DNA of 64,000 nucleotides from Segetibacter koreensis DSM 18137. GTDB lineage: Bacteria > Bacteroidota > Bacteroidia > Chitinophagales > Chitinophagaceae. This document shows positions 8,825 to 29,199 of the stretch, in pieces. The stretch spans positions 1 through 64,000 of the forward strand of contig NZ_KB893381.1 in the NCBI RefSeq assembly GCF_000374045.1, in the 5' to 3' direction. The number at the start of each line of letters is the position of its first letter. The stretch's first letter is position 1. A program made the translations under genes and the position numbers. The notes under the pieces were generated by a model, which saw only the letters and a program-made list of their open reading frames with translations, made no database searches and was not told the origin of the DNA.

Positions 8825-8867
8825 AAAAAAACATAATTATTAGTTCAATAAGGCTATTTTTAGCTTT
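8825..8867 (+). promoter_or_regulatory. Candidate operator, copy A (shared with the SusC operon at 29.1 kb)
   Basis: This 43-nt segment matches the minus strand of 29094-29136 at 33 of 43 positions without gaps. The conserved blocks are AAAAAA, CATAATTATTAG, AATAAG and ATTTTTA, separated by identical spacings of 1, 3 and 3 variable bases. TTATT and AATAA within it form a small inverted repeat. It ends 77 nt before the start codon of the mutarotase-like gene and has the same orientation relative to its gene as copy B. The rest of 8641-8944 shows no gene. Binding by the adjacent AraC protein is inference. Confidence 0.6.
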
Positions 8868-8944
8868 CTCAAAAACCTGATTTTTGCTGCAAGAATAATA
8901 ATCTGAATATAACATATTGCTCATTTGTTTTTTAAGCGGAACTT

Positions 8945-9862
8945 ATGATCTCAAATAGCACTAAAGATGGTATCGAAATTTTGACAACGGAAAATGATCA
9001 GCTCTTCTGCTCGATTGCTCCATCTCTTGGCGGGAAAATAACCAGCTTATACAACAAAAGTATTGACAGAGAATTTTTATGGACAAATGAAAATCTTTCT
9101 CTGAAAATCCATTCCCTAGGCGCTGATTATGATTCTAATTTCTTTGGTGCAATTGATGAATTAATTCCAAATGATATTCCAGAAACTGTTGACTCCATAA
9201 CTTATCCAGACCATGGCGAATTGTGGACAACAGTTTTGCAATCTAAAGTAGAAGATGAAAAAATTACGGTCTTTGGTAGGCTTCCCCTCAGTGGACTTTT
9301 TTACAGTAAAACGGTTTACCTTGATTCAAACAAACCTATCCTCTACCTCGATTACAAAATAAGAAATGAGTCTGACGTAAAACGAAATTTTTTATGGAAA
9401 CTCCATGCAGCATTGAAAATCAAACCGGGTGACAAATTGGAAACGGGCGCTAAAAATGGTAAGGTAGTTGATCCTGAATATTCGCGTTTTACGCAATTTG
9501 ATGAATTTGCGTGGCCATTAATAGAAAATAAAGATGCTTCAATAATTCCGGCAAAAAGTAACACGATGGATTTCTTTTATCTCTATGGAATGCCAAAAGG
9601 TGAAATGCAATTATTGAGCAACGATGAGAAATACTTGTTTAGTTACAGCTACGATTTGAAAGTATTTCCCTATCAATGGTATTTTGCGTCTTATGGTGGT
9701 TTCTTTGATCATTACACTGCTATACTTGAGCCTTGTACAAATATGCCTATCAGCGTAAATGATGCGCTGGCAAAACATCAAAGCGCCGTTTTGGAACCAG
9801 GGGAAGAATTAACCACTACAGTACGAATTTATGCAGGAGAAAAAACTAATTATATTCCTTAA
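8945..9862 (+). CDS. Aldose 1-epimerase (mutarotase)-like protein
   Basis: A 305-residue protein without signal peptide, so cytoplasmic. It has the beta-sandwich pattern of galactose-mutarotase-like proteins: SIAPSLGGKITSLYNKS near the N-terminus, DELIPN and YPDHGELW about residues 78-100, a central KLHAAL histidine, and LEPCTNMPISVNDAL near the C-terminus in place of the usual catalytic glutamate region. Mutarotases speed up anomer exchange and feed dehydrogenases that accept one anomer. It is the first gene of a three-gene operon, and its stop is immediately followed by the start of the SDR gene. The precise sugar is not readable; it could also be a non-catalytic sugar-binding relative. Confidence 0.75.
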   Translation: MISNSTKDGIEILTTENDQLFCSIAPSLGGKITSLYNKSIDREFLWTNENLSLKIHSLGADYDSNFFGAIDELIPNDIPETVDSITYPDHGELWTTVLQSKVEDEKITVFGRLPLSGLFYSKTVYLDSNKPILYLDYKIRNESDVKRNFLWKLHAALKIKPGDKLETGAKNGKVVDPEYSRFTQFDEFAWPLIENKDASIIPAKSNTMDFFYLYGMPKGEMQLLSNDEKYLFSYSYDLKVFPYQWYFASYGGFFDHYTAILEPCTNMPISVNDALAKHQSAVLEPGEELTTTVRIYAGEKTNYIP

Positions 9863-10615
9863 ATGAATAGACCAAAAGTGTTAGTCACAGGAGCAGCTTC
9901 TGGCATAGGAAGAGCAACAGCTCTGCGGTTTGCGCATGAAGGTTACGATGTATGCGCAAATGATATTCAGCCCGCAAAACTTACTGCTTTACTTAGCGAA
10001 TTCCCCCCGGGGCATCATTTAATACTAAAGGGAAGCTATGCTGATAAAGAAATTATACAGGAAGGAGAAAAGCTTATCAGGGAAAGTTGGGGAAGTCTTA
10101 ATGCTTTGGTCAGTTGCGCGGGCATTTCTGAACAAACAGACCCGATAGCGATGGATATAGAAAGGTGGAGGGTGATATTTGATACAATGGTCAATGGCTG
10201 CATACTCATTTCTAAATTGGCCGCTCAATTTATGCCAAACGGTGGCAGAATAATTCATGTAACATCAATACATGGGACTCGTGCAGAATTTGGTGCCAGC
10301 AGCTACTCCATGGCAAAGTCTGCTATCAACCAATTTTGCAGGTCTTTAGCCGTTCAGCTTGCAGACCGAAACATTCTTGTCAATGCTGTTGCCCCGGGTT
10401 TCGTTGACACTGCTATGTCGAGAGTTAATGGTATGAATGAATTAGAGAGCGAATGGTTTAAAACAAATTATGTTCAGGGACATCATTTGCCCTTGCGAAG
10501 GGCAGCTACTGCAGATGAAATAGCGGGTGTTGCTTTTTTCCTTGCTGGCAAAGATGCTTCTTATATTACCGGCCAGGTAATTACTGTCGACGGAGGATTA
10601 ACAATAACTTTTTAA
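9863..10615 (+). CDS. Short-chain dehydrogenase/reductase (sugar dehydrogenase candidate)
   Basis: A 250-residue classical SDR. The cofactor motif TGAASGIG is at residues 10-17, the catalytic Ser near 135, and Tyr148 with Lys152 (YSMAK). The end has VAPGFVDT and ITGQVITVDGGL, typical of the family. Asp34 at the end of the second strand suggests preference for NAD over NADP. The start codon follows the stop of the mutarotase-like gene directly, and the dehydratase starts about 10 bases after this gene ends, so the three are almost certainly co-translated. In such a context the likely job is oxidising a sugar to its lactone, or a later 2-keto-3-deoxy acid step. The substrate is inferred from neighbours only. 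Confidence 0.9.
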   Translation: MNRPKVLVTGAASGIGRATALRFAHEGYDVCANDIQPAKLTALLSEFPPGHHLILKGSYADKEIIQEGEKLIRESWGSLNALVSCAGISEQTDPIAMDIERWRVIFDTMVNGCILISKLAAQFMPNGGRIIHVTSIHGTRAEFGASSYSMAKSAINQFCRSLAVQLADRNILVNAVAPGFVDTAMSRVNGMNELESEWFKTNYVQGHHLPLRRAATADEIAGVAFFLAGKDASYITGQVITVDGGLTITF

Positions 10616-10624
10616 ATATTATAA

Positions 10625-11800
10625 ATGAAAATTGAGTCAGTTGACTTCTTCTACCTCAGCATGCCTGAAGTACTCGATATTGGAGACGGTAGCCAGGATG
10701 CTTTACTGGTAAGAGTAAGAGCCGGAGGATATGAGGGCTGGGGTGAATGTGAAGCTTCTCCCCTCACCAGTATAGCCAGTTATGTTTGCCCGATGTCTCA
10801 TAGCGCTTGCAAGCCATTGAAATACTCTGTAGAAGGAAAAAGTATAGACGATGTATCAGACATTCGTCGCATTTCTACTTTAGTTCATGAAAACTCTCTT
10901 GATCTTTTACAGGCAGATCATACACTTTCCGGTATTGACATTGCTTTGTGGGACTTATTGGGTAAGAAGCTTAACGAGCCCGTTTATCATTTATTAGGCT
11001 ATAAAAGAGCTTTTCCCAAGTTGCCTTATGCTTCGCAATTGTTTGGTGACACACCAGAGGAAACTTACCAAAAAGCGAAGCAAACCAACGCAGCGGGATA
11101 CAAGGCCGTAAAGTTTGGCTGGGGTCCTTTTGGCAAAAATGGAATTGAAAAAGATATTGCGCATTTGAAGGCTGCGCGTGAAGGAATGGGTAACGATGCT
11201 TTTTTAATGATTGACGCAGGCACAGTCTGGGGAGAAGCGGTTACTGCTGCTCAGGAAAGACTAGCAGCGCTCAGAGAGGTAAATACGTTTTGGTTTGAAG
11301 AGCCTTTTATAAACGGCGCACTGAGCCCATATAAAGAACTTTCAAATTCAAACCCAAAAGTGCCGCTCGCCGGAGGAGAAGGGTGTAACAATTTTGTACA
11401 AGCACAAGCGATGATTGATTACTCTGGCGTTTCATATATCCAGATAGACGCAGGAAGAATCGGTGGAATTACCACGGCAAAAAGAGTAGCCGATTTGGCA
11501 ACTTCCAGAAATGTAACTTATGTTAATCATACCTTTACCTCCCACCTTGCACTAAGTGCATCACTTCAATCTTATGCAGGTATTGAAAAAGACTTTATCA
11601 GCGAATACCCTGTTGAATTAAAATCTTTAGCACAGGAAATCGGTAAAGAAAAAATTCTACCTGATAGCGATGGCTATATACACCTACCAGATAAACCTGG
11701 ACTAGGAATTGAAGTAGATAAGGAGGCTTGTAGAAACTATTTAGTAGATGTGGAAATAAAGGTGAAGGGAAAGGCATTGTATTATATGCCGGAGTTGTGA
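10625..11800 (+). CDS. Enolase-superfamily sugar-acid dehydratase (mandelate racemase/muconate lactonising type)
   Basis: A 391-residue protein with the capping domain (about 1-130) and the barrel of the mandelate-racemase group. Visible catalytic and metal positions are Lys160 and Lys163 in YKAVKFGWGPFG, Asp197 in MIDAGT, Glu225/226 in WFEEPF, Glu252 in AGGEGCNN, Asp275, and His302 in NHTFTSH. Family members dehydrate sugar acids such as galactonate, fuconate or rhamnonate to 2-keto-3-deoxy acids. It is the last gene of the mutarotase-SDR operon, which fits a non-phosphorylating pathway. Which acid it uses cannot be decided from sequence. A racemase or epimerase role is the main alternative. 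Confidence 0.85.
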   Translation: MKIESVDFFYLSMPEVLDIGDGSQDALLVRVRAGGYEGWGECEASPLTSIASYVCPMSHSACKPLKYSVEGKSIDDVSDIRRISTLVHENSLDLLQADHTLSGIDIALWDLLGKKLNEPVYHLLGYKRAFPKLPYASQLFGDTPEETYQKAKQTNAAGYKAVKFGWGPFGKNGIEKDIAHLKAAREGMGNDAFLMIDAGTVWGEAVTAAQERLAALREVNTFWFEEPFINGALSPYKELSNSNPKVPLAGGEGCNNFVQAQAMIDYSGVSYIQIDAGRIGGITTAKRVADLATSRNVTYVNHTFTSHLALSASLQSYAGIEKDFISEYPVELKSLAQEIGKEKILPDSDGYIHLPDKPGLGIEVDKEACRNYLVDVEIKVKGKALYYMPEL

Positions 11801-11873
11801 GGTAAGATGGCGAGAACCGAAGTCAACTTTGAAAAGTGGTTTTCAATATCCGGAAGCTTTGACGAATAAAGCT

Positions 11874-11924
11874 CTTTTTCAATGAAAGTTTTACATTCTT
11901 TATATTGGTAATGTATTGAAAAAG
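11874..11924. terminator. Long hairpin between convergent operons, possible bidirectional terminator
   Basis: CTTTTTCAA at 11874-11882 is the exact reverse complement of TTGAAAAAG at 11916-11924. Inside it TACATT (11892-11897) pairs with AATGTA (11910-11915), giving a two-part stem. It lies between the stops of the dehydratase gene and the GH2 gene, where a two-way terminator is expected. The stem is AT-rich and has no long T-run, so the role is uncertain. The rest of 11801-12057 shows no gene. Confidence 0.4.
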
Positions 11925-12057: not shown

Positions 12058-13905
12058 CTACGCTTTAAACATTCTCGCCAACGCTTCAAGAGATTTTTTT
12101 GCTTTCCGGTCGACTGTCACAACCCCATATGGGCCGTACGCGGCGTACGTAATGAAATATTTCCTGTGAAAGTAATCAGCCCAACACCATAAGACTCCAC
12201 CGGCTACTCCCGGAACACTTTTTATTCCTTCCCATATTCGTTCTATATACGCCGACTGGAACTCTTCCGAATAAGAAACATCACCGTGAATATTTTTAAT
12301 ACCCTGCGTACCAAACTCAGTTATCACTATAGGTTTCGATAATTTCTTTCGATGTTCAGCAAGTTCTTTTACAAATGGCTCATAACCTAACTTGTCTATA
12401 TCAGAAATATGATCACAACTTTTTTCACTGAAAACTCCATTATATTTATTAATACAAACAATATCTGCGTTATCGTATGCAAGATGACCATCAGGACTAC
12501 CTGCCACCACAAATGTTACTAATCTTGTAGGATCAAGAGACTTTGCCTGAACCAATAAATCGCGCATAACTTTTATTCCAATATCGTTGTTCGTTTCAGA
12601 TTCATTTGCCATGCTCCAGAAAATGATCGATGGATGATTTTGATCCCTCGCAATCATCTTAGTAAGAGCAGGTTTGGCAAAATGGAGAATATCTAAACTT
12701 TGAATGGTGTCGCCATACCACTTTACTCCCCACCAGTTTAACGGAATTTCTTCCATCATCATAAATCCATATTCATCGTATAACGATAGCAAGCGTGAAG
12801 ACTGCGGATAGTGCATCCTGATAAAATTTATCCCAACACTTTTCATTAAAGCCAGTTCTTCCCTCAAAACTTTTTCGGGGACGACCGGCCCATATCTTCC
12901 ATATTCATCATACCGATTTACACCTTTTATATGTATCGGTTCACCATTTAAAAGTATTGACGTACCGCGAACGCTTACCTCCCTTATACCAAAACGATCA
13001 CTCACATCATCAATCACTTTGTCATCTTTTGTTAGGGCTGCTGTTGCTGTGTATAACACCGGTGTTTCAGGAGACCATAGCTGCGGATTAGTAATAACCA
13101 GGTCAACACTTATTGACGTTCTTTGGTTTGATTTAAGATTAACTTTTACTTTTTTACTGGAAATAATTTTATCTCTTAGAATAGAAATATCTAAATCAAG
13201 TGCCGGGGCACCATTACTTTCACTAAATATGTTTACAACACAATTAATCGTGGCTACTTCTTTTTTGTGAGTTGTTTTAATAATCATGTCTTCTACGAAA
13301 ACATGATCTGTACTTAGAAGCTCCACTGTGTCCAATATGCCACCATATTGTATCCATTCAATTTGCCTCGCGGCCGGCAGCCACTCTATTCTTGGTTTAT
13401 TATCCACTCTTACAACCAGCGTATTCTCAATTCCCTGTTTCAACTTATCGGAAATATTGAAATCGAAAGGAAGATAACCGCCGATATTCTCACCAATAAA
13501 CTCCCCATTGAGCCAGACTTTGCTATAAAACATTACTCTGTTAAACAGTATCAGAGTCCGCCTGCTCATATCAAAATCAACAGTATCTAACTTTGTCATA
13601 TACCATCCGATACCTTCATATTCCCAGAGAGCTGTCTCATAATAATCCCATGCTTGCGGCACTATAACTTTTCCCCAATCACTATGACTAAACTGTTTGG
13701 TAAACCACTGCTCACGCTCACCTATATCTTTAATATCTACCTGAAATTTCCAATTGTCAGAAAGAACAATGCTTTTTCTCTCTGATTTACTTTTTACATC
13801 TCCTTTTTGCTGCTCCTGGCTAACGTACGGTCCTGCTAAATCCCGGCTAATAACAGCTGTTCCCAGCAGTAATCCTAATTCAGTTAACGCTTCTCTCCTA
13901 TCCAT
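12058..13905 (-). CDS. Glycoside hydrolase family 2 (beta-glucuronidase/beta-galactosidase type)
   Basis: A 615-residue GH2 enzyme. Order: signal-like start (RREALTELGLLLGTAVIS), sugar-binding jelly roll (about 45-215, with VWLNGEFIGENIGGYLPF), Ig-like sandwich (about 216-310), TIM barrel (about 311-615). The acid/base is Glu435 in WSMANESE and the nucleophile Glu530 in VITEFGTQG. NWWGV, HYPQSS and the short length favour beta-glucuronidase-like members over large LacZ-type enzymes. It is the last gene of the long minus-strand operon, 14 bases after the transporter gene. It probably removes a terminal beta-linked uronic acid or galactose in the periplasm. Confidence 0.9.
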   Translation of the reverse strand: MDRREALTELGLLLGTAVISRDLAGPYVSQEQQKGDVKSKSERKSIVLSDNWKFQVDIKDIGEREQWFTKQFSHSDWGKVIVPQAWDYYETALWEYEGIGWYMTKLDTVDFDMSRRTLILFNRVMFYSKVWLNGEFIGENIGGYLPFDFNISDKLKQGIENTLVVRVDNKPRIEWLPAARQIEWIQYGGILDTVELLSTDHVFVEDMIIKTTHKKEVATINCVVNIFSESNGAPALDLDISILRDKIISSKKVKVNLKSNQRTSISVDLVITNPQLWSPETPVLYTATAALTKDDKVIDDVSDRFGIREVSVRGTSILLNGEPIHIKGVNRYDEYGRYGPVVPEKVLREELALMKSVGINFIRMHYPQSSRLLSLYDEYGFMMMEEIPLNWWGVKWYGDTIQSLDILHFAKPALTKMIARDQNHPSIIFWSMANESETNNDIGIKVMRDLLVQAKSLDPTRLVTFVVAGSPDGHLAYDNADIVCINKYNGVFSEKSCDHISDIDKLGYEPFVKELAEHRKKLSKPIVITEFGTQGIKNIHGDVSYSEEFQSAYIERIWEGIKSVPGVAGGVLWCWADYFHRKYFITYAAYGPYGVVTVDRKAKKSLEALARMFKA

Positions 13906-13919
13906 AATATTGATGTGAT

Positions 13920-15140
13920 TTATACTCTCTCCACATGCGTAACGACACTGAGTTTCTTTTCTGCACCCGCTCGCTTAGCGCAAAACAATCCGTAGATAAT
14001 AATTAAAACAACACAAAAACAAGGAATTAAGTAACACAACTGAACACCTCTTGAGTCCGCAATCATTCCCTGCAATGGCGGAAAAACTGCGCCACCTACT
14101 ACCGCGATGTTTATCAGTGCCGAACCTTTTTCAGTAAATGCTCCTGCGCCTTCAATTCCCAGGCTGAATATGCATGGAAACATTACAGATATGAAAGCGC
14201 CTAATCCTACCAGATAATAAGGATTTAATGATGAATTTGTAAAAGCGATAAGCAAATACAAAATCACCATACATGTGCCAAAAACAGCGACCAATTTGCC
14301 GGGAGATACAGATTGCAAAAGATAAATTCCGACTACGCAAAAAATAGTGGACGCTATATAGTAATAAGTAAGAAAAGTTGCAGCCTTTTCTGCTGAGAAG
14401 CCAGCAATGGAATTATCTCTAAGATAGTTAATAAAAAAACCGGCGGTGCCCGCTTCGGCGCCCATATAAAAAAACATTATGATCGCACCCCAAAACAATT
14501 GCGGATAATTTCTCGATTCCTTTATAATAGAAAATAGGGAAAAATCTTTAAGAACTTCCGGCTTAAGAGCAGGAAGAGCTGAAAACAGGATCAGGATCCC
14601 AAACAGAAATGTGCCGATACCTATTACGAGATAAGGAAGGTGAAACGAAATAGAGTTTCCGCTTCCATAAATTAAACTTGTACCTATAACCGGGGTGAAC
14701 GAATAGCCAATCCGACTAAAAAGTTGCACAATATTTACCCGGACATGTGAACCAGAAGGATCTCCTAATAAAGCGGCAAGCGGATTGGCTGCTACGTTAA
14801 TCATAGCAACGCCTGTCGAAACAATAAAGATGGCTACAAGAGCTAAAACATATGACAAAGCGTAGTACGCAGGAACAAAAAGCATACATCCACAGCCGCA
14901 AACGGAAAGGGCTGTCGCGACACTGATCTTGTAACCAAATCGCGAAATGTAGTAGGCGATAGGAATAGGAAAAATAAGATAAACAACGAAGAACGATTGC
15001 TGGATAAATGTTGCCTGGACGTATGAAAGGTGAAAAAGGTCTTTAAGTGATGGCAAAAGTATATCGTTCATGCATATCAATGAACCTGTAAACAGAAATA
15101 CACATGAGACAAGTAACAACGGTTTCCATTGATGCTTCAT
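13920..15140 (-). CDS. Sugar MFS transporter, FucP-like
   Basis: A 406-residue protein with about 12 hydrophobic segments. The start has the FucP-type arrangement MNDILLPSLKDLFHLS, followed by a second helix with QQSFFVVYLIFP and the cytoplasmic loop SRFGYKIS. VAANPLAALLG in helix 4-5 also fits the fucose/glucose/galactose:proton symporter group. It would bring monosaccharide freed in the periplasm across the inner membrane. It sits between an SDR gene and the GH2 gene in one operon, with gaps of 14 and 18 bases. A sugar such as L-fucose, D-galactose or D-arabinose is a reasonable guess; the sequence does not tell which. Confidence 0.85.
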   Translation of the reverse strand: MKHQWKPLLLVSCVFLFTGSLICMNDILLPSLKDLFHLSYVQATFIQQSFFVVYLIFPIPIAYYISRFGYKISVATALSVCGCGCMLFVPAYYALSYVLALVAIFIVSTGVAMINVAANPLAALLGDPSGSHVRVNIVQLFSRIGYSFTPVIGTSLIYGSGNSISFHLPYLVIGIGTFLFGILILFSALPALKPEVLKDFSLFSIIKESRNYPQLFWGAIIMFFYMGAEAGTAGFFINYLRDNSIAGFSAEKAATFLTYYYIASTIFCVVGIYLLQSVSPGKLVAVFGTCMVILYLLIAFTNSSLNPYYLVGLGAFISVMFPCIFSLGIEGAGAFTEKGSALINIAVVGGAVFPPLQGMIADSRGVQLCYLIPCFCVVLIIIYGLFCAKRAGAEKKLSVVTHVERV

Positions 15141-15158
15141 TTGCGCTTTTTAAAATGT

Positions 15159-15920
15159 TTAATAAGTGGCGCGACCGCCTGAAATGTCGTAAACAAAACC
15201 GGTAGAAAAGCTGTTTTCATCAGAAACTATATAACAAGACATGGCGGCCACTTCATCTATAGTCCCTAACCGATGCATCGGAATTTTCGCAGTCATATAG
15301 GCTAATTGTTCGGGAGCCGTATTTTCGTTCATTCTTGTTTTTATGACGGCTGGCGCCAGTCCATTAACGGTAATATCTGTATCTGCAAATTCCTTAGCCA
15401 CTCCTTTGACCAGGCCAATAACTCCGGCTTTAGTCGACGAATAACCCACCATTCCCGGGTTCCCTTCTTTACCTGCTATAGAGGCAATTAATAACAATCT
15501 GCCCTTTCCCGCCTTTTTCATCACTTTCAAAGTATATTTTGTAATGAGAAAAGTACCTCTGAGATTTATCTCGTAGATTTTATCAAAATCTGAAGTTGGA
15601 AAGTCAGTTATTTTGGTATTGGTAGGACCGACGATGCCTGCAGCATGTATCACAATATCTATTTTACTCCATAGCCGTTCTACTTCCAAAATTGCTTCTG
15701 ATACCTGGGATTCGCTGCTCACTTCTACGACAAATCCCTTTGCCTGTATACCCAGACCTTCAAATTCTCGAATAGTCGAATCTAACAACTCCCGGTTGAT
15801 ATCAAAAACTGCTAACACTGCTCCCTCTTTACCCAGCCTGCATGCCACTCCCTTACCTATTCCATCTGCGCCACCCGTGATAATGGCAACCTTATCTTTA
15901 AAACGCTCTTTTATTATCAT
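15159..15920 (-). CDS. Short-chain dehydrogenase/reductase
   Basis: A 253-residue classical SDR with TGGADGIG at residues 15-22, Asp40 for NAD preference, catalytic Ser147, Tyr160 and Lys164 (YSSTK). The C-terminal end reads FSTGFVYDISGGRATY, which differs from the usual ITGQxxxVDGG but keeps the fold pattern. In oxidative sugar pathways a second SDR often acts on the 2-keto-3-deoxy acid, so this and the plus-strand SDR may serve different steps. Its 18-base distance to the transporter gene supports one transcript. Protein sequence clearly differs from the other SDR in the window, so this is not a recent duplication. Confidence 0.9.
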   Translation of the reverse strand: MIIKERFKDKVAIITGGADGIGKGVACRLGKEGAVLAVFDINRELLDSTIREFEGLGIQAKGFVVEVSSESQVSEAILEVERLWSKIDIVIHAAGIVGPTNTKITDFPTSDFDKIYEINLRGTFLITKYTLKVMKKAGKGRLLLIASIAGKEGNPGMVGYSSTKAGVIGLVKGVAKEFADTDITVNGLAPAVIKTRMNENTAPEQLAYMTAKIPMHRLGTIDEVAAMSCYIVSDENSFSTGFVYDISGGRATY

Positions 15921-15940
15921 AGAAAATTTTTATAAATAAT

Positions 15941-16022
15941 CAATGAACGGTGAACAATGAACAGCGAACCATGTTCTCAATGCTCAACCATACTTTTTAC
16001 TTTTCAATTTTTCACTTTTCAC
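15941..16022. repeat. Seven-base tandem repeats, two types, in an intergenic gap
   Basis: The first array has period 7: CAATGAA, CGGTGAA, CAATGAA, CAGCGAA, then decaying units. After about 50 bases a second array on the same period follows: ACTTTTT, ACTTTTC, AATTTTT, CACTTTT. The second overlaps the stop codon of the GH97 gene. Similar TGAAC-rich and TTTTCA-rich heptamer blocks are common between genes in Chitinophagaceae, as I recall. They may fold, since the two arrays are partly complementary (GTGAA against TTCAC). Confidence 0.6.
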
Positions 16023-18016
16023 TCCTTATCTAACCTGATTAAAAATCCTCCCCCTGGTGCAATGTGTATTTTCATTTCATCATTCTTTTTAACTGTTACA
16101 TCCTTTTGAATAACATAATCTGCCGCATACCTGTCTGCATTGATTCCATCTTTGCAAATGGTGGCTTTATAATTTCCATCACTTAAAAAATCAAACTTTA
16201 CACTTACATCTCTTTCAGACCAGTTACTCATTCCACCAACAAACCAGTCATTTCCTTTTTTTCTTGCGGAAACAATAAATTCACCCACTTTTCCGTCTGT
16301 AACAACTGTTTCATCCCATGCCGTTGGAAGATTGCCAAGAAGAGACATAAACTCAGCCTCCCGCATTCCTTCCGACGGATTACCAGAAAATATCTGCATA
16401 GGACTGTCGTAAACAACAAACATAGCAAGTTGATGGCAGCGTGTGCCAGGGCTTGTTACTACTCCGGCAACGGGTCTTGTTCCCTTTTTTGTTGCATTAT
16501 TTAAAAGTCCCGGCTCGTAATCAAAGCCTCCTGCAAGCATTCTTGTAAAAGGTAATGTAACATCATGTTCGGGTGTCACCCGGTTACTCCATATATTAAA
16601 TTCTGAACCCATTACACCTTCCCTTGCTACAGCATTGGGATAAGTGCGGTTAAATCCTTTTGGAGGAAAAGCACCATGATACATGATCATGATCTTATGG
16701 TCTGCGCACGCTTTCGCTATCCGGTGATAAAAGTTAACCGTCTTCTGGTCATCACGATCTATAAAATCCGTCATAATAAAATCTACTCCCCATTTGTTGA
16801 ATTGATTTAGGGCACTGTCCAACTGCCTGTCAAGTGTTTTTGATAAAGTCCACATGCTTATCTTAATTCCCTTTTCTTTTGCATATGCCACCAAAGTGTC
16901 CATGCTAATAGTTGGTGTTATTTTAAACAAATCATTATTGTCACTCCAGCCGGCATCCATCATAATACGATCAAAACCGAATCGTTTTGCAAAATCAATA
17001 TAATACTTATAAGAGTTGGTATTAAGACCTGCTCTGAAAGGCACATTGAAAAGATTAATATCTATCGTCCATTCATCAGTAAGATTTCCCGGCTTTACCC
17101 ACGAAGCATCCCCAATTCTTGAAGGTGCCCCTAACCTGTACACGATATCATTTGACGGCAATTCTTTATCTTCAGCAGCAATCAGCAGTACCCGCCAGGG
17201 AAAGCTTCGCGTGCCGCGGGTTCTTGCAATATAAGGGGCGCGTTTGGTAACCTTCAGTTCTGAATACAACGCTTCTGTTGCCTGCTCTTCAAGCGGGTAA
17301 GGGGCAAATACACCTTTTAACATCGAAGAACCTGTGCCACCTAAAAACATTCCGGGATAATCTTCAAGATCAGACTCTGTGATGGCAATCTTAGGATTCA
17401 AATCGGGAGCGACAAGTATCGGTGAATAACTTATAACACCGTCAGCAAGAGTATCTATTCTTCTCAATGGATACTCCTCTTCAAAACTTGTATGAAAGAT
17501 ATCAGAATCTTCTCTTTTCTGCACTTTAGGAAAATAAGCTGATGGAGTGCCGGGGAAAGCAAACTCTGCGACTTCATTATTTACATATATAGAATCTTTA
17601 AACATAGTAGAGATGCGATAAGCTACCCCATCATCATAAACTCTGAACTCAACTTTATAGGGTTGTTTGAATGCAACAGATAAAACATTATATACATCTG
17701 GTATTACCTTTCTTTTCTCAGGAACCGGGGAAATGATCTGTTCCCTGACCTTTTTTACAGAAGACGATTTAATAGAATTATTTGAAGAAAGAGACCTGTT
17801 TTTGTCTAATAAAAAATCTATAGACGAAGGTGCGAGAATGACTTTGTTATCATACAAAATCTGATATTGCAACTGCTTACCCATCCATACCTTGACAGCA
17901 ATTTTACCTAAGGGTGAACTTACCTGTAAAGTATCTTTAGACCATCCCTTAAGACAAATTGCAATAGAAAATATAATAATTATAACATGTTTCATTTTGT
18001 TCTGACTGTCCTTCAT
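16019..18016 (-). CDS. Glycoside hydrolase family 97 (retaining, alpha-galactosidase-type)
   Basis: A 665-residue GH97 enzyme. It has a signal peptide (MKHVIIIIFSIAICLKG, probably starting at Met8), an N-terminal beta-sandwich (about 30-290), a TIM barrel (about 300-560) and a C-terminal beta domain. Asp417 in FIMTDFIDRDDQ sits where retaining GH97 enzymes carry their nucleophile. Inverting SusB-type alpha-glucosidases lack this residue. Glu466 in REGVMGSEFN is near the acid/base position. From established knowledge of the family, this points to alpha-galactosidase rather than alpha-glucosidase activity. It fits the GH36-like gene in the same operon. Confidence 0.88.
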   Translation of the reverse strand: MKDSQNKMKHVIIIIFSIAICLKGWSKDTLQVSSPLGKIAVKVWMGKQLQYQILYDNKVILAPSSIDFLLDKNRSLSSNNSIKSSSVKKVREQIISPVPEKRKVIPDVYNVLSVAFKQPYKVEFRVYDDGVAYRISTMFKDSIYVNNEVAEFAFPGTPSAYFPKVQKREDSDIFHTSFEEEYPLRRIDTLADGVISYSPILVAPDLNPKIAITESDLEDYPGMFLGGTGSSMLKGVFAPYPLEEQATEALYSELKVTKRAPYIARTRGTRSFPWRVLLIAAEDKELPSNDIVYRLGAPSRIGDASWVKPGNLTDEWTIDINLFNVPFRAGLNTNSYKYYIDFAKRFGFDRIMMDAGWSDNNDLFKITPTISMDTLVAYAKEKGIKISMWTLSKTLDRQLDSALNQFNKWGVDFIMTDFIDRDDQKTVNFYHRIAKACADHKIMIMYHGAFPPKGFNRTYPNAVAREGVMGSEFNIWSNRVTPEHDVTLPFTRMLAGGFDYEPGLLNNATKKGTRPVAGVVTSPGTRCHQLAMFVVYDSPMQIFSGNPSEGMREAEFMSLLGNLPTAWDETVVTDGKVGEFIVSARKKGNDWFVGGMSNWSERDVSVKFDFLSDGNYKATICKDGINADRYAADYVIQKDVTVKKNDEMKIHIAPGGGFLIRLDKE

Positions 18017-18074
18017 AAGTTTTTTCTCAAAGATTTTAATCTACCTGTTTAGCTGAACCCTGTTTTATTGTTGA

Positions 18075-21494: not shown

Positions 21495-21637
21495 ACAGGA
21501 TAATTCTATTCTTGAAATTATATATTATACTACTCCTTTTCATGATGTTACTAGCTTGAACCAAGCTTAAAAATATAGATACAGATATCATCAGCCTTAG
21601 TAAACTTTGCATGATATCAGCACCTTTTTTCGAAAAA

Positions 21638-23803
21638 TCATTTTTTTGCTCCAAAGAATATGATTTTCGCGCCACCTGTATCAAAAGTCATTTGTAAAAC
21701 AGCTCTTCCTTTTGCATCAAATGAAACCTCAACTCCTTCATTTTTCCAGGTATCTTTTGCTACTTTATTTTCTGAAACATAAGTGTACTTTCCCGGAATA
21801 GTTGCAAATACTACCATAACACCTTTGCCTGTTCTTTCATTAATTTTTTCATATATTTCAGGGCTCGTTCCTGTCTCACCTTGCCTCACGAGACTACTTT
21901 CGGTAATGTCATTTTTTACTTGTTTGTATACGCCCAGAACTTCATTAAAATATGCTATGCCTTTCGGCGATACTTTCATAAGCTCACCCCATAAACCGTT
22001 AGCACCGAGTATCAAAGAAGCGATATTGATGGTTTGCGAATTTCTTGGTTCATCGGACATATAAGGAGCAAAAAGTAAAATAGAAGGAATCCATTGATCA
22101 TAGTTTAAAACAGATCGGGCAAACCATCCCCTTGCCGGACCGGGATTGACAAATATATTAGTGTTGCCATTTTTCAACGGACTTTTGCCTTCGGCTGCCA
22201 GGTCGTAATTAGAATAGTAGGGCCCATTATTGATGAAGAAGAACTTTCCTGATGATAAAAACTGTAACCCTACAGTTCGCCCTTTTTCAGTTACATCGAA
22301 ATCAAAAATAGTGTGGGGGTAAGTTTTGCATACTTTATCTATTACTTTCGACATGTATATAGGAAGCTGAAATGCATAACTTCCAGCCCTTTCTTCTTCT
22401 GAATTATCAGTCGTACCGTGAAAATGGTGAGGATCATCACATCCATAAGAACCAACACCATCCCAATAAATATAAGTAATGCCTAATTTTTTTATCGTTT
22501 CAATTAATTTATCGGCATAGGCTTCCCAGTATTGACTTACTAAACAAAGATCAACACTTTCTTTTGTTTCCCATATTAGTTTCGGTTTGCTCTTTTCTCC
22601 CTTCCAGCTCATTACCGAAGAACGATTAGCTGTAAGCAATTTACTGTCAATAGCAGCGACTGTCGGGTTGAACCATAAGCCCAGCTTCATACCATAGTCG
22701 TCTAATTTTGCTTTCACTTGCTTAAGCGTGTCAGGAAAAAAAGAAGTGTTTACATCCCAGTCACCTGTTTTTGAAAACCATCCGGCATCAATTTCAAAAA
22801 TGTCTACGCCCATTTTTTTTGCAATATCTATTTCTTTAAGCGTAGTTGCCATGTTCATGCTACTTAAATAACTCCCGCTTACATCCCTATCACGCTCCTG
22901 CCTTCCCCATGAATTATAAAAAATATAAGGCTTACGACTTTCCAGGTTTTCTGTAATATAGCGAAGCATGAAGTTGCGGTAATGCTTTTGCAGGGCAGAC
23001 TGGTCGCCTTTTGCCCCACCTATCTCAAACCAAAGCGTTTCATATGCCTGTTGATGGTTTAATGGCTGATTATTTACGTAATTTGATTTCGCTGCCTGGA
23101 GCGATAAATCATGTGATGGATGAAATTGAAATTCGAGGAAACGGTCAGGCAATTGTGACCCGTGTTCATAAGCAAGTAGAAACTGTTCTTTGGGATCTGA
23201 AAAAACGATCATAGGCCCCATAGCTGAAAAATCGTCTTCAAAATAGCGGTTATCCAAAGCTTCTTCGTGCAGCAAATAAGCATGATATTTTTCATTAAAT
23301 TCTGAAAACCGTATTTCTTTAATACTATTGAACTTTTTTAAAGAAGTAGAACAATAAGTGAAATTATCTTTTCCACTTGTCTTTGTGAGCCGGTGATTAC
23401 CGGTGGTGTGCAACGCATATTGAAACCTGACAATGGGATTACCGGGAGAGACCCGAAAAAGTATACTAAGTTTTATGGAAGGATCAGAAACAATAGGCCC
23501 TTCAAATGTATATTCTTGAACTCCATTAGTAAGGTGAATATCCGGCTTTTTATCAAATACAGACACCTTTGCTGCAACTTTTCTGCCATCAATTTCAAAC
23601 ACCGGCACCTGCATACTCAACGTATTTTGTCCTTCGGCCAGCTGGTAAGTCCATAAGGTACTATTAGAATTATGCACAGCTATCTCGCATAAATTGTTTC
23701 CTATTTTACCTGCCTGACTTAGTCCCTCCGCCATTAACGCAACGGGATTACTTGCAGTAATTATAAATATAAAATATAGAAATATTCTTTTGTAGACTTT
23801 CAT
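21638..23803 (-). CDS. GH36-like alpha-galactosidase
   Basis: A 721-residue exported enzyme with signal peptide (RIFLYFIFIITASNPVALMA). The N-terminal beta-sandwich (about 30-290) is followed by a TIM barrel with PYIFYNSWGRQERD, FEIDAGWF, KLGLWFNPTVAA and Asp448 in YIYWDGVGSYGCDD, which lies where GH36/GH27 enzymes carry the nucleophile. The usual K-W-D motif is Y-W-D here, so this may be a divergent subgroup acting on other alpha-linked sugars. A C-terminal beta domain closes the protein. It is the first enzyme gene after SusD in the operon, separated from it by 190 bases containing a hairpin. Confidence 0.8.
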   Translation of the reverse strand: MKVYKRIFLYFIFIITASNPVALMAEGLSQAGKIGNNLCEIAVHNSNSTLWTYQLAEGQNTLSMQVPVFEIDGRKVAAKVSVFDKKPDIHLTNGVQEYTFEGPIVSDPSIKLSILFRVSPGNPIVRFQYALHTTGNHRLTKTSGKDNFTYCSTSLKKFNSIKEIRFSEFNEKYHAYLLHEEALDNRYFEDDFSAMGPMIVFSDPKEQFLLAYEHGSQLPDRFLEFQFHPSHDLSLQAAKSNYVNNQPLNHQQAYETLWFEIGGAKGDQSALQKHYRNFMLRYITENLESRKPYIFYNSWGRQERDRDVSGSYLSSMNMATTLKEIDIAKKMGVDIFEIDAGWFSKTGDWDVNTSFFPDTLKQVKAKLDDYGMKLGLWFNPTVAAIDSKLLTANRSSVMSWKGEKSKPKLIWETKESVDLCLVSQYWEAYADKLIETIKKLGITYIYWDGVGSYGCDDPHHFHGTTDNSEEERAGSYAFQLPIYMSKVIDKVCKTYPHTIFDFDVTEKGRTVGLQFLSSGKFFFINNGPYYSNYDLAAEGKSPLKNGNTNIFVNPGPARGWFARSVLNYDQWIPSILLFAPYMSDEPRNSQTINIASLILGANGLWGELMKVSPKGIAYFNEVLGVYKQVKNDITESSLVRQGETGTSPEIYEKINERTGKGVMVVFATIPGKYTYVSENKVAKDTWKNEGVEVSFDAKGRAVLQMTFDTGGAKIIFFGAKK

Positions 23804-23833
23804 TATGCGTAATGAATGCTTGTAGTAGATGCC

Positions 23834-23862
23834 CCTGAAGTTTCTTTACGTGCCTCTTCAGG
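23834..23862 (-). other. Hairpin between SusD and the GH36-like gene
   Basis: CCTGAAG (23834-23840) is the exact reverse complement of CTTCAGG (23856-23862), with a 15-base loop. It sits between the stop of SusD and the start of the first enzyme gene in the same operon. Such hairpins often lower transcription after SusCD or protect the SusCD mRNA from decay. There is no clear T-run, so a full terminator is unlikely. Confidence 0.4.
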
Positions 23863-23993
23863 TCACCACTTAAAATCTATTATGCACAAGCATATTATTT
23901 TTAACTCCTGATTATCAAAACAACTATTATTTCAATTAATGCGAAGAGTTCTGACGATGCAATGTGCCCAACTCTCCGTTAAAATCTTTACGA

Positions 23994-25829
23994 TTAATAT
24001 CCCGGATTTTGCACCAGTTGAGGTGCCCTGTTCATCTCGTCAACCGGAATAGGAACCCAATACATTTTTTTATCTGCAGGTCCCCGTTTCTGAACAACAA
24101 TCTGCCGCCATGTTGTAGTCACCGTATTATTATCCTTATTTCTTGTTTCAACAATATCAACTCCAGTCGCATCGGTAAGCGCCTGGCTTAAAATTTTCCA
24201 CCTCCTGATGTCATACCAACGAATATCTTCATATATAAACTCAATCCTTCTTTCATATCTTAATGCAGCGGTAATGTCACCAGTAAAATCAGGAAGACCT
24301 GCTCGGTTCCTTATGATATTGATGTATTTAGTTGCTTCGCCCGTCTCATTCAATGCCAAACTGGCCTCCGCATAGTTCATAAGAATTTCTGCATACCTAA
24401 ATTCAAACCAGGCATTCTCATTATTATTCGTTTCGGTGCCGTACACTTTATCGTCAAGGTATTTCTTAAAAGTGTATCCTGTGTAGGTTCCATCGTCGCC
24501 GTCAACAGGACCTTGCCGGGTGTCAATTCCAAATATTTTACTTACTTCCTGCCCATTCTGTATAGTGACACGAGTGCGTCTGTCATAAATTCCAAGAGGA
24601 TCTCTTCCGGCAAGATCAGCATAACGTTTTTGCCAAACTGCACTGTCGTATAATATCTCGGCATAAAACCTTGGCTCGCGGTTATAATACATATTCGGGC
24701 TCGTGTACCTGGTGGAGATATTTTTATAGAAACCGTTATTATCTACCTTGTAATGGTTTTTAAAATCTGATCCATCAGCCATTTGAAAAGCGTCTACGAG
24801 GTTTCCGGTAGGAGCATTACAACCATACATTACAAACCCGTTTGTGCCATTGATAAGGTTGATCTGGTTACGGCTTCCTACATCTTTCAAAAACATTTTC
24901 CCCCAGATAACCTCATTGCTTGACAGATCTTTTGCTTTGAAGAAATTAAAGTAACCTGCTGACACTGCTGCCTGGTCTGGAGCGCCAAAATCCTCGACCT
25001 TATATGTTCCCAGGTCCATTACCGCTTTTGCTGCGTTTTTTGCCGCTGTCCACAATGCAGTACGATCAGCGCTTTTATATCCTACAAATTCATTTTCAGC
25101 AGTACCGTCTGCGGTAAGATCACTTGCAGCATATAGTAAAAGTCTTGATTTCAGGGCAAGAGCGGCTCCTTTAGTTGCCCTTCCCATTTCCATGTCCGCC
25201 TTATCTCCCAGTAATGCAGCAGCGGAATCACATTGTCCTGAAATGAAATCAACTGTTTCTTTAAAACCTGATCGCTTGATGGAAAGATAATCTTCTCCTA
25301 TCTGAAAAGGTTGAGTAATAATGACCAGTCCACCATAATTACGGGCAAGTTGATGGTAACAAAAGGCCCTTAGAAACAGCGCCTCTCCTTTCATTCGTTC
25401 AGCTTGTGTTTTAATAGCCGCTTGTTGTGGTGCAGGGTAAGCGTCAGCAACTTTTTCTATGTTAGCCAGAAATATATTTAGTCTTTGAATATTCTTGTAC
25501 ATAACTCCCCAATTGGTATAATGGAAAGCCCAGTTGCCAAACGGACCGGTAGCGCTGGGTGAAATATTTCCTTGCAGGTAGTTTCCTGTTTCGAAACCAT
25601 GTGTATCGTGCGATTCATCTGAAATAGAAGCATAAGATAAATACCCAAAGCCGCCTTGTAAACTTTCATTATAAGTATTGAGCAGGTAGCGGTCGGCGAG
25701 GTTAATGTCTGAGAACACCAGGGCATCTGAAAATTTATCCTGGGGAGTTTTATCTAAAATCTTGCTACATGACGCAAGGAAAAAGATGGCGAGGGTTAAA
25801 AGTGGTATATATAGTTTAAAGAGTTTCAT
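23994..25829 (-). CDS. SusD/RagB-family outer-membrane glycan-binding lipoprotein (pair 1)
   Basis: A 611-residue SusD-type protein. The lipobox FLASCSKILDK gives Cys21 as the lipid anchor. ALFLRAFCYHQLARNYGGL in the TPR-like helical region and EFRYAEILMNYAEASLALNE, followed by RNRAGLPDF and YERRIEFIYEDIRWYDIRRW, are family hallmarks. It works as a surface lid on its SusC partner, holding oligosaccharide for import. It starts 48 bases after the SusC gene ends. Which glycan it binds is inferred from the alpha-galactosidase-type enzymes downstream. Confidence 0.95.
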   Translation of the reverse strand: MKLFKLYIPLLTLAIFFLASCSKILDKTPQDKFSDALVFSDINLADRYLLNTYNESLQGGFGYLSYASISDESHDTHGFETGNYLQGNISPSATGPFGNWAFHYTNWGVMYKNIQRLNIFLANIEKVADAYPAPQQAAIKTQAERMKGEALFLRAFCYHQLARNYGGLVIITQPFQIGEDYLSIKRSGFKETVDFISGQCDSAAALLGDKADMEMGRATKGAALALKSRLLLYAASDLTADGTAENEFVGYKSADRTALWTAAKNAAKAVMDLGTYKVEDFGAPDQAAVSAGYFNFFKAKDLSSNEVIWGKMFLKDVGSRNQINLINGTNGFVMYGCNAPTGNLVDAFQMADGSDFKNHYKVDNNGFYKNISTRYTSPNMYYNREPRFYAEILYDSAVWQKRYADLAGRDPLGIYDRRTRVTIQNGQEVSKIFGIDTRQGPVDGDDGTYTGYTFKKYLDDKVYGTETNNNENAWFEFRYAEILMNYAEASLALNETGEATKYINIIRNRAGLPDFTGDITAALRYERRIEFIYEDIRWYDIRRWKILSQALTDATGVDIVETRNKDNNTVTTTWRQIVVQKRGPADKKMYWVPIPVDEMNRAPQLVQNPGY

Positions 25830-25877
25830 ATCTATTTCTTATTTAATTCTAAATCTTAAAACTGATTTTAAAACTGA

Positions 25878-28800
25878 TTATAGGGAAATTCTTGCTCCGA
25901 CTGTAAACACTCGCATAATAGGATAACTATACACGCCAGGAGCAGGGTCGGTGGCAACGGTAGTGCGTATGCCGCCCACCTCCGGGTCAATCAGTTTGTT
26001 GCCAGAATACAGCAGGAAGAGATTTTGCCCGGACAAGTATATTTGCGCATCTTTAAGGCGTATCTTATTTTGTATACCTACTGGAATCGTATAAGCTAAT
26101 TGAAGATTTTTCAAACGTGCATAAGCTCCACTCTGATAGGAATAGTCCGTTACATAGTCATTCCTCCAATAAGCATCATTTCTATCAAAAGCTCTTGGCT
26201 TGTTAGCATTAATATTATCAGGGGTCCATCTGCCATCGGCATCATAAGCAAAATAATTACCGGCAAAACCCTGTAAGCCTACCAGTACCCTCCTGCTTGC
26301 ATTTGCCGCACCTTGCACAAGGCCATTCAGGCTCCAGTTCTTATAGGTTACGCTAAAAGAAACTCCATAAGTAATCTCAGGGTTAACAGTTTTAGTGTGC
26401 AATACCCGGTCATCAGAGTTGATCTGCCCGTCGTTATTATAATCCTGGATAATTATATCTCCGGGTATAGCTCCAGACACATGCGGAGTTTTAGTGATTT
26501 GCTCCTCATCTCTAAAGATACCTATAGAATGATAAACAAGTTCTGAACCCTGTGGTTTACCTGTTAACACCTGCCACGGAACGTTGCGTGCTGGTTCATC
26601 AAACTCTATCACTTTGTTTCGGGCAAATGCAATGTTCCCGTTGAGCGAGTAAATAAAATCTCTAACCTTGTTATTATATCCTAATGATATTTCAAAACCT
26701 CTGTTATCTACAATTCCAAAGTTTTCATCTGGCAATTGAATACCGGTAAAATCAGGCACAGATGCATTTCTTTTTACCAGGATGTTATTACGTCTCTGGT
26801 AGAAAAAGTCAGCATTCAGTGTAAAGTGGTTATGAAAGAACATCGACTCAAAGCCAGCGTTGTAAACATTTGCCACTTCCCAAGTAATATTTGGATTAGT
26901 AGCGCCTATTTGGCTAAGACCTGTTGAGTAACTTCTGCCGGATCCTAAAACATACCCGGTACTTAAAGAATATGCAGTCAGATATTGGAAGGGTGCAACC
27001 AAGTCATTACCCAATTGCCCCCACGACGCTCTCAACTTAAAGTAATCTATAAACCTGATATTATTTTTCCAGAAATTTTCGTTTGATATTCTCCAGCCTG
27101 CCAGTACGCTTGGAAAATTACCCCACCGCCCGTGTTCTTTTGAAAATCGTAGTGAACCATCCCTTCTCATCGAAAACTGGAATAAATACGTTTCCTTATA
27201 ATTATAGCTCAGTCTTCCAAAATAGTTGATACGCGAATCAAGCGACACGAACTCGTTGTTGTTCTTTTCCGCATCTCCCCCAGCGAACAGGTAAGGTAAT
27301 TGCGAACTAATGAAATACCTTCTATAAGCATCAATACCTTTACCATCATATTCAGAAGATTCGTAAGCAACAAAGGCACTTATATTATGCACTCCCTTAA
27401 TGGTAGCAGTGTAATCGGCTTTTATATTAAAGGTTTTCGTTCTGGCATCATCGTAAAAATCTCTTAGCCATGGTTCCGGCACTCCTTTTAATGTTCCTAC
27501 AAGGAAAGCAGAACCATCTTCCACTCCTGTGTTGCCCGCAGCCAGGTAAGCCGGTTCATCTAACTGGTAAAGTGTCCATGGTTTCTGAAATAATTTTCTT
27601 TGACCGAGATTAATATCATAAGCATAATAACTTGAAAGAGTTAAGCCTTTTACGCCCGGAATTTTAAGATTAGCACTAAAAATATTATTTGCCCTGTAAC
27701 GTTTAGAATTATCAAAACCCGTTTGATCTGTTACCGTTACTACAGGATTTTGACCATACGCAATGTCTGGTCCCGGCAGGCCGTTGGGATAAACTGCAGG
27801 AGAGGTTGGAAGGCTTTTAATTGCGCCATCGAGATTGAAGCCAGCATCTACGGAAGGATAATTCCTGTTTTCCTGCGAACCATTTATGTCAACTCCAAGT
27901 GTTAAATACTCGTTTACTTTAGCGTTAACTGTTGCTTTAAGATTATACCTGTTAAATGAAGTTGATGAATTTTTAAATATTCCATTTTCATATTCAGTAC
28001 CAAAAGAGACATAATAGTCTACCGCTTTATTTCCACCACTTAGTGCTACATTATGGTTCCGTGTCTGGCTGAATTTCCTGAAAGATGCATTTATCCAATC
28101 AGTATTAGGATGTGTCCATGGAAACTTTCCTGACTTATATTTTTCTATATCATCAAGTGAAAATTTCTTGTTTGCTTCGTCAACACCTCCATATGTTTGC
28201 ACCTCTCTAATCATTTGCGCATAAGAAACAGCATCGGCCATTTTTGGAAGTGCGGTTGGTGTAAGCAATCCCTGGTAAAAGCTATAATTAACAGTGAGAG
28301 GAGAGCCTTCTTTCCCGCGCTTAGTTGTAACAAGGATTACTCCGTTAGCAGCTCGTGCACCATAAATAGCAGCAGATGCATCTTTAAGAATGCTAATGCT
28401 TTCTACATCGCTTGGATTGATGGAATTTAAATCCCTTCCCAAAATACCATCTATTACAACAAGTGGTTCGTTGTTTCCCAGCGTGGCCATTCCACGAATT
28501 AAAATAGTTGCTCCGTTATTTCCCGGCTCTCCGTTTGACTGCTGTACGACAGCTCCGGGAAGGCGTCCGGCTAATGCGTTGGAGATATTTGGAACAGGCG
28601 AAGAGGACAGCTCTTTGCTTCCAACAGTTACGACAGATCCTATAACATTTACTTTCTTTTGTGTGCCATACCCCACCACCACAACATCATTTAATGTTTT
28701 ATTTTCTGCTTCAAGTCTTACATTAACCGTAGTCTGTGATCTTACAGCAATTTCCCTTGAACCGAACCCAACGTAAGAAAGGACGAGGGTACTGTTGTTA

Positions 28801-29033
28801 GCAGCAGGAATGGAAAATTTTCCATTGTCGTCAGAAGTTGTGGTCTTAGTGTTGCCTTTTACCGAAATACTTACTCCGGAAAGAGGCTCCCCTTTATCGT
28901 CGGTTACAACCCCTGTTATAACCCGGCCGCTTTGTGAAGTTTGTGAAAATGTGATAAAAGGAATAGAAAAAATGAAAATCACTATTAGAGTCATTTTAAT
29001 AAATGACCTAAAAAAAAGCCATTTTCTTTTCAT
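25878..29033 (-). CDS. SusC-family TonB-dependent outer-membrane transporter (pair 1)
   Basis: A 1051-residue SusC. After the signal peptide there is a CarboxypepD_reg-like domain (GVVTDDKGEPLSGVSISVKG, about 40-115), the plug (about 120-240) with DVVVVGYGTQKK as the TonB-box-like segment and IYGARAANGVILVTTK, and the 22-strand barrel ending in AQIYLSGQNLFLLYSG and VFTVGARISL. No STN domain is present, so control through an anti-sigma factor is unlikely; AraC control fits better. It heads the operon SusC-SusD-GH36-(1139 aa)-GH97-SDR-MFS-GH2. An operator candidate lies 60 bases upstream of the start codon. Confidence 0.95.
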   Translation of the reverse strand: MKRKWLFFRSFIKMTLIVIFIFSIPFITFSQTSQSGRVITGVVTDDKGEPLSGVSISVKGNTKTTTSDDNGKFSIPAANNSTLVLSYVGFGSREIAVRSQTTVNVRLEAENKTLNDVVVVGYGTQKKVNVIGSVVTVGSKELSSSPVPNISNALAGRLPGAVVQQSNGEPGNNGATILIRGMATLGNNEPLVVIDGILGRDLNSINPSDVESISILKDASAAIYGARAANGVILVTTKRGKEGSPLTVNYSFYQGLLTPTALPKMADAVSYAQMIREVQTYGGVDEANKKFSLDDIEKYKSGKFPWTHPNTDWINASFRKFSQTRNHNVALSGGNKAVDYYVSFGTEYENGIFKNSSTSFNRYNLKATVNAKVNEYLTLGVDINGSQENRNYPSVDAGFNLDGAIKSLPTSPAVYPNGLPGPDIAYGQNPVVTVTDQTGFDNSKRYRANNIFSANLKIPGVKGLTLSSYYAYDINLGQRKLFQKPWTLYQLDEPAYLAAGNTGVEDGSAFLVGTLKGVPEPWLRDFYDDARTKTFNIKADYTATIKGVHNISAFVAYESSEYDGKGIDAYRRYFISSQLPYLFAGGDAEKNNNEFVSLDSRINYFGRLSYNYKETYLFQFSMRRDGSLRFSKEHGRWGNFPSVLAGWRISNENFWKNNIRFIDYFKLRASWGQLGNDLVAPFQYLTAYSLSTGYVLGSGRSYSTGLSQIGATNPNITWEVANVYNAGFESMFFHNHFTLNADFFYQRRNNILVKRNASVPDFTGIQLPDENFGIVDNRGFEISLGYNNKVRDFIYSLNGNIAFARNKVIEFDEPARNVPWQVLTGKPQGSELVYHSIGIFRDEEQITKTPHVSGAIPGDIIIQDYNNDGQINSDDRVLHTKTVNPEITYGVSFSVTYKNWSLNGLVQGAANASRRVLVGLQGFAGNYFAYDADGRWTPDNINANKPRAFDRNDAYWRNDYVTDYSYQSGAYARLKNLQLAYTIPVGIQNKIRLKDAQIYLSGQNLFLLYSGNKLIDPEVGGIRTTVATDPAPGVYSYPIMRVFTVGARISL

Positions 29034-29093
29034 ATGGTAATGATTATAACCGTTAGAGTGTTAGCTTGGATAGATAAATGTAGAGGATTCTTT

Positions 29094-29136
29094 AAGCATA
29101 AAAATTCACTTATTTTGCTAATAATTATGCTTTTTT
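29094..29136 (-). promoter_or_regulatory. Candidate operator, copy B, upstream of SusC 1
   Basis: Reading the minus strand, this segment contains AAAAAAGCATAATTATTAG then AATAAG and ATTTTTA, and matches copy A at 8825-8867 in 33 of 43 positions. Its outer ends also form an inverted repeat, AAGCATAA (29094-29101) and TTATGCTT (29125-29132). It ends 60 bases before the SusC start codon. TACATTTA about 20 bases nearer the gene is a possible match to the Bacteroidota -7 element, which would place the operator over the -33 region. Confidence 0.6.
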
Positions 29137-29199
29137 AACGAGTTTAACTTCTTTAGACGCTTGTATTCATTTGCCTCCATTTTCAGCAAAATCAAGAAA

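Follow-up and report, generated by a model that had tools for sequence, protein, structure and literature searches.

The first 64,000 nucleotides of contig NZ_KB893381.1 of Segetibacter koreensis DSM 18137, which we refer to as the window, carry two copies of a 43-nt element, one ahead of an operon of putative sugar-oxidizing enzymes (operon 1) and the other ahead of a SusC/SusD uptake operon (operon 2). This element is very probably an operator-promoter through which AraC1, an AraC-family protein encoded divergently from operon 1, controls the two operons as a regulon; in our best reading, this regulon is small and local, and AraC1 would act on both operons as an activator. Sites of this kind recur in other genera, keep a fixed spacing to a promoter box and co-occur with AraC1; that AraC1 binds them, that it activates rather than represses, what its inducer is and where transcription starts we infer from the DNA sequence. 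The first-pass annotation of the window had already joined the uptake and catabolic operons into one regulon, and the conserved sites described below support this. For a polysaccharide locus of the galactoside type, the element would provide an operator, a promoter and a regulator that can be tested; it would also join uptake genes to an apparent oxidative sugar pathway and, through its rigid 56-nt spacing, would offer a simple rule for finding the targets of related AraC proteins.

Two copies of one element and their spacing to a promoter box

Copy 1 (8825-8867, plus strand) and copy 2 (29136-29094, minus strand) are identical at 33 of 43 positions without gaps and lie 77 and 60 nt, respectively, from the ATG of the following gene, both in the same orientation relative to it, with coordinates and counts just as the first-pass annotation had given them. 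When the blocks they share are searched as a single pattern with up to three mismatches, two occurrences are found in the window and none in 100 shuffles. A search of all 6.1 Mb of the genome for CATAATTATTAGNNNAATAAG gives two perfect matches, exactly copies 1 and 2, followed by five with two mismatches; since the total of 41 at up to three mismatches compares with 46 for a reversed control pattern, the weaker ones, taken together, do not rise above background. The window has 38 larger open reading frames (ORFs), and for 32 of these we also compared all 43-mers from the 200 nt upstream; the other six are four that overlap others or lie where the window ends, and the two internal genes of operon 1. 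The top pair was again copies 1 and 2, with 34 identities in their best register as against a maximum of 31 in 58 shuffled upstream sets.

Two weaker partial copies had also been claimed, and they fared differently. The region at 4940-4975 does hold a significant half-operator match (4970-4944, minus strand), which agrees at 22 of 27 operator positions, a level reached in none of 200 simulations under a first-order Markov model that may understate AT-rich intergenic DNA; it points away from the CE15-like gene at 5045 and has no -7 box or promoter at +56. The other, at 54666-54724, scores at background and was discarded.

Each full copy consists of two half-sites 21 bp apart, roughly AAAAAAGYATA for the first and AATAAGTAA for the second, followed at +56 by a -7 box of the Bacteroidota type; in both copies, the first bases of the TTAAAAAAG block and of the box are exactly 56 nt apart. 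For copy 1, the predicted operator and promoter ahead of the mutarotase-SDR-dehydratase operon span 8820-8887 (plus strand), with half-sites at 8825-8835 and 8846-8856, an ATTTTT block at 8856-8861 and the -7-like GATTTTTG at 8879-8886; for copy 2, those ahead of SusC span 29074-29141 (minus strand), with half-sites at 29136-29126 and 29115-29105, ATTTTT at 29105-29100 and the -7 box TACATTTA at 29082-29075. Both are predicted AraC1 targets. The -33 element of Bacteroidota sigma-A is TTTG or TTG. In the window copies the second half-site ends on the ATTTTT block at the expected -33 position, which lacks the G of the consensus; in our alignments A1 and A3, column 37 is always an A. The housekeeping sigma factor of Bacteroidota recognizes a -7 box of the form TAnnTTTG at -12 to -5 (PMC9723704, in the sections drawn on here), which the window element resembles through the TAnnTTT box at +56, with start sites placed from sequence alone; the box of copy 2 fits TAnnTTT and is one letter off TAnnTTTG.

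The same spacing is found beyond the window. Intergenic sites near ten more distant AraC1 homologues (50-60% identity) read TGTTAAAAAAGTATA, with a TAnnTTT that starts exactly +56 from the first T of TTAAAAAAG. In 186 kb around members of the AraC1 clade, the same loci where this spacing was first noticed, 17 of 25 unselected GTTAAAAAAGTA matches (at most one mismatch) have TAnnTTT at +56, no other offset having more than one, and the reversed pattern gives four matches, none of them with the box. A similar pattern has 10 matches at five further loci, 7 of them with TAnnTTT at +56, and 3 at five control loci, 1 of them with the box. Across 27 aligned sites the box at +56 is exact in 20 and within one mismatch in 26, with 17 of the 27 chosen for having it. 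Alignment A1 omits a site that lies at the edge of its locus, further one-mismatch matches and three TTAAAAAAG-type sites that are intergenic and have no TAnnTTT at +56; because these three were dropped, the -7 box in A1 is partly a product of selection. The internal repeat is modest, a shift of 21 being best in the 8-site set (0.56) and in the 17-site set (0.47), and a shift of 15 in a set of two further sites. As the distance from the element to the -7 box is constant and that to the start codon varies, the element looks like an operator-promoter unit.

Conservation of the sites together with AraC1

The composite element precedes orthologous SusC genes (72-73% identity) in two other genera, represented by Ilyomonas limi (Chitinophagaceae; G073) and by a genome that is 79% complete (G212), in both of which the family-wide search also recovered AraC1 orthologues (73-74%). 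More weakly, it also stands upstream of the mutarotase operon in G212, so that the conservation ahead of orthologous operons anticipated by the first-pass annotation is indeed found. Ilyomonas limi keeps the gene order SusC-SusD-GH36like-GH97-GH2, and in G212 the mutarotase-like, SDR1, dehydratase and AraC1 genes are contiguous. Direct pattern searches reached less far: among ten genomes of the genus and 294 of the family, a 31-nt pattern occurs only in the window's own genome (G000), in G212 and, with three mismatches, once in G255, and the exact seed pattern has no match in the Ilyomonas locus L033, where the matrix did find diverged sites. A loose gapped pattern allowing two mismatches was abandoned as a search tool because it ran near control rates (4 places in the window's genome vs 5 for its control); it had eight exact matches among the matches listed, all in four genomes of the AraC1 clade.

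Two site models were used, R1 from 17 sites beside the AraC1 homologues of 50-60% identity in ten genomes, with none from the window's genome, G073 or G212, and R2 from eight window-type sites, both copies included. The best R1 match in the window is copy 2 (E = 4.8e-6), and in whole-genome scans, with 150 candidates per genome fully scored, the SusC site ranks first in the window's genome, G073 and G212 (E of 4.6e-4, 0.0028 and 0.008 across the three; next best at least 0.085). R2 finds the two copies in the window's genome at 1e-11 to 1e-12 (copy 1 at 1.6e-11), the next match being at 0.0018, and also matches SusC-upstream sites in G038 and G036, outside its training set. By the CATAATTATTAGNNNAATAAG search, by R1 for copy 2 and by R2, trained on both, for both, the two sites are clear of the genomic background. 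Two of the R2 matches that come next in this genome were followed up, and neither was kept as a further regulon member: C5:18564 is partial and lies inside a 352-aa ORF, and at C73:101550 the spacing is altered and no ORF of 100 aa follows. Copy 1 scores 22.5 with a matrix made from the three SusC sites only, a value reached in none of 500 shuffles (maximum 12.1), and the same matrix places the sites of an MFS unit and a GH36 unit in G073 above 500 shuffles as well. When each of the eight window-type sites is left out in turn, it scores 15.5-48.5, the best non-site in the window scoring 7.9.

The sites follow AraC1. At E<=0.01, R1 matches 27 of the 294 family genomes, namely all 13 of the AraC1 clade (10 of which had supplied training sites) and 14 of the 281 others; at the 14 non-clade loci inspected, one best locus per genome with a second G082 match outside the inspection, 8 of the matches lie inside ORFs of at least 120 aa. 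One match, in G032 (E = 6.7e-6), is intergenic before a 501-codon open frame and may be a real site. At five new loci with an AraC1 homologue (50-57%, assigned by identity alone), R1 sites occur within the surrounding 20 kb in four (8 matches, E of 1e-12 to 2e-8), and at five control loci around AraC genes of 37-40% in none (best 0.33). In G571, one of the new loci, the site lies directly ahead of a 37% SusC homologue and is divergent from the AraC1 homologue.

AraC1 itself (7753-8640, minus strand) has an N-terminal AraC_binding/cupin domain (PF02311, E = 1.6e-5; 25.1 bits, cut-off 21.1) and a C-terminal HTH_18 domain (PF12833, E = 1.2e-24), the double helix-turn-helix of the AraC/XylS family. 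Its clade of 13 genomes has a tree support of 1.000, and the second recognition helix reads SN(F/Y)Y(K/R)HF in all 13; that tyrosine is found in none of 20 other AraC proteins aligned, 11 of which read SNFNRQF. Such a clade-specific recognition helix would suit an operator particular to the clade. Sampling 348 genomes of the order turned up homologues at least 50% identical to AraC1 in Chitinophagaceae alone.

Proposed mechanism and competing explanations

The cupin domain of AraC1 would sense a sugar released by the locus, and its double helix-turn-helix would occupy the two direct-repeat half-sites, which at a spacing of 21 bp lie on the same side of the helix. With the downstream half-site running into the -33 position, AraC1 could recruit the housekeeping sigma factor to the TAnnTTTG box, so that the uptake and cutting genes behind copy 2 would be switched on together with those behind copy 1, which would oxidise the sugar set free. 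Escherichia coli AraC at araI1-I2 similarly uses a pair of half-sites spaced by about 21 bp, of which the downstream one touches the upstream box of the promoter; the window element is like it in half-site spacing and promoter contact and differs in sigma-factor boxes and sequence.

The first-pass annotation had named an AraC protein of the locus as the probable regulator without choosing one. The likely regulator is AraC1, which is conserved with the sites, and not AraC2 (29963-30847, minus strand), although the latter also belongs to the AraC family and its gene, upstream of SusC, ends 929 nt from it. Among the 13 genomes searched, AraC2 orthologues (63-64%) were found in G037 and G282 only, and these two carry R1-type sites beside an AraC1 homologue; none was found in G073 (36% at best, and none in the 3 kb ahead of its SusC) or in the 79% complete G212 (39% at best, this being its AraC1), both of which keep the SusC site. 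We therefore rejected AraC2, which is highly unlikely to read these sites. That AraC1 represses the promoters, or works with a second regulator, rather than activating them is unlikely too: the position of an operator does not by itself settle the sign, and the window holds two further AraC genes, yet tandem half-sites upstream of and touching -33, in fixed phase to -7, have the layout of an AraC-type activator, as at araI1-I2. The AraC-family RhaR of Bacteroides is likewise called a positive regulator in the sections of PMC3870299 drawn on here.

A generic strong promoter, made of an A-tract or UP-like element with -33 and -7 boxes and read without a dedicated regulator, would account for a -7 box at fixed spacing in a very AT-rich element, and a similar plan is possible at AraC loci outside the clade; it is nevertheless quite improbable, given only two strong R2 places in the genome (with R2 trained on them) and the R1 sites in the whole clade as against 14 of 281 other genomes, with more than half of those inspected inside ORFs. 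The suggestion that the two copies match by chance, or arose by recent duplication of one promoter, can draw on AT-rich upstream regions that match one another by chance at 27-31 of 43 positions. We give it practically no weight, as none of the 58 shuffled sets reaches 33, the flanks of the copies have no evident similarity to each other, the element is conserved before SusC in other genera and copy 2 is found by the independently built R1.

Several observations weigh against an AraC1-run operator-promoter at both operons. Conservation rests on other genera, because the nine other genomes of the window's genus lack the motif; eight of these have no AraC1 homologue at E<=1e-85, the ninth being G007. 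The loose gapped pattern matches 168 of 294 genomes at rates that, by eye, are much like those of its control. Copy 1 is the weaker of the two in some respects, its -7 box being one letter off TAnnTTT(G) and its R1 score 3.9 bits (E = 6.5 in the window), and in both window copies the direct repeat holds at just 6-7 of 11 positions. None of the four GTTAAAAAAGTA matches in the G073 and G212 stretches has a box at +56, because the sites there read GCATA or have diverged. The mutarotase site of G212 is weak, being reached by 12 of 500 shuffles with the SusC matrix and by none of 500 with the combined matrix, and for the site of the 439-aa/mutarotase unit in G073 the SusC matrix gives 8.2, against a shuffle maximum of 18.2 in its region. 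G608, the most divergent of the five new AraC1 loci, has no R1 site in 20 kb. Finally, five scanned AraC loci outside the clade, one of them the control locus G116, have TAnnTTT at +56 from a like block.

At five AraC loci outside the clade (L056, L057, L060, L062 and L064), scanned without a shuffle control, the TTTGCTAAAAAAGTATA-like site with its TAnnTTT at +56 is divergent from the AraC gene and 45-53 nt upstream of it, and at two of them, L056 and L062, a SusC homologue follows. The general plan is therefore not specific to AraC1, and may be older and wider than its clade. We see about an even chance that the window site is one instance of an operator-promoter grammar common to a large AraC-family branch in Chitinophagaceae, in which a distal half-site near TTAAAAAAGTATA stands exactly 56 nt before the -7 box and its letters drift as the regulators diverge; were this true, sequence alone could suffice to read off the regulons of many AraC proteins that are as yet uncharacterised.

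Related systems and neighbouring genes

The system appears to be of a familiar kind, with a motif and a regulon that seem new. L-rhamnose regulators of the AraC family in Bacteroides, Bacillales and Enterococcus have direct-repeat motifs with 21-bp periodicity (PMC3870299), and resemble the present case in that a stand-alone AraC-family protein controls a local regulon, made up of one operon or several; they differ in substrate genes and lineage, and a fixed -7 spacing is not described in the sections of that paper drawn on here. In the polysaccharide loci of Bacteroides thetaiotaomicron, AraC-type hybrid two-component systems have direct repeats with an average of 21 bp between sites (PMC3878776, again in part), and share with the window the AraC-type DNA-binding domain, the direct repeats and the control of SusC/SusD; AraC1 differs in its cupin-type N-terminus and lacks a sensor-kinase part. 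Both systems are likened to ours by repeat period, not by motif letters. AraC1, AraC2 and a third protein of the window, AraC3, are 287-295 aa long and have no sensor or histidine kinase domains, and are hence not hybrid two-component systems. In listings of the open-access literature, we found neither a dedicated paper on AraC regulons of Chitinophagaceae nor one containing TTAAAAAAGTATA.

Operon 1 (8945-11800, plus strand) encodes a mutarotase-like protein (8945-9862), named so from the earlier annotation and a sub-threshold DUF5107 match, an SDR protein (9863-10615) and an enolase-superfamily protein resembling galactonate/arabinonate dehydratases (10625-11800). Operon 2 (12058-29033, minus strand) runs from SusC (25878-29033) through SusD, a GH36-like protein, a 1139-aa protein, GH97, SDR2 and a FucP-like MFS transporter to GH2 (12058-13905); its genes lie on the same strand with gaps of at most 190 nt, which suggests one transcript, and the SusC/SusD pair together with glycoside hydrolases makes it a polysaccharide utilization locus. 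The best NCBIfam names, retaining alpha-galactosidase, gluconate/galactonate dehydratase, beta-glucuronidase and L-fucose permease, point to a galactose-like sugar that would be oxidised without phosphorylation, an assignment that stays loose because these enzyme and transporter matches all fall under the curated cut-offs. The 1139-aa protein (18075-21494, minus strand) has no Pfam or NCBIfam match, and none of the ORFs in the G073 stretches L068 and L069 matches it at E 1e-20.

At locus L073 (10865-18578), an AraC1-clade site also leads an operon with creatininase-family, 3-hydroxyacyl-CoA-dehydrogenase-like, MR_MLE, DHDPS, RraA and FAH proteins, and a similar order is seen at L074, L075, L079, L080 and L082, with domains checked mainly in L073; this type of operon is possibly an undescribed acid-sugar pathway.

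Elsewhere in the window, the region 31168-60375 holds separate loci with 3-keto-disaccharide hydrolases, HEAT/cytochrome c proteins of the DUF7133 type and GFO/IDH/MocA oxidoreductases, as well as two more SusC/SusD pairs with AraC3. A GH20-type gene remnant at 4401-4820 (plus strand) comprises an N-terminal piece of 90 aa that weakly matches Glyco_hydro_20b (E = 0.0019; 19.4 bits, cut-off 26.1) and, judged by eye, an apparent C-terminal piece in another frame. At 29860-29881, finally, there is a perfect tandem duplication of the 11-nt unit GGGTTTTAAAA.

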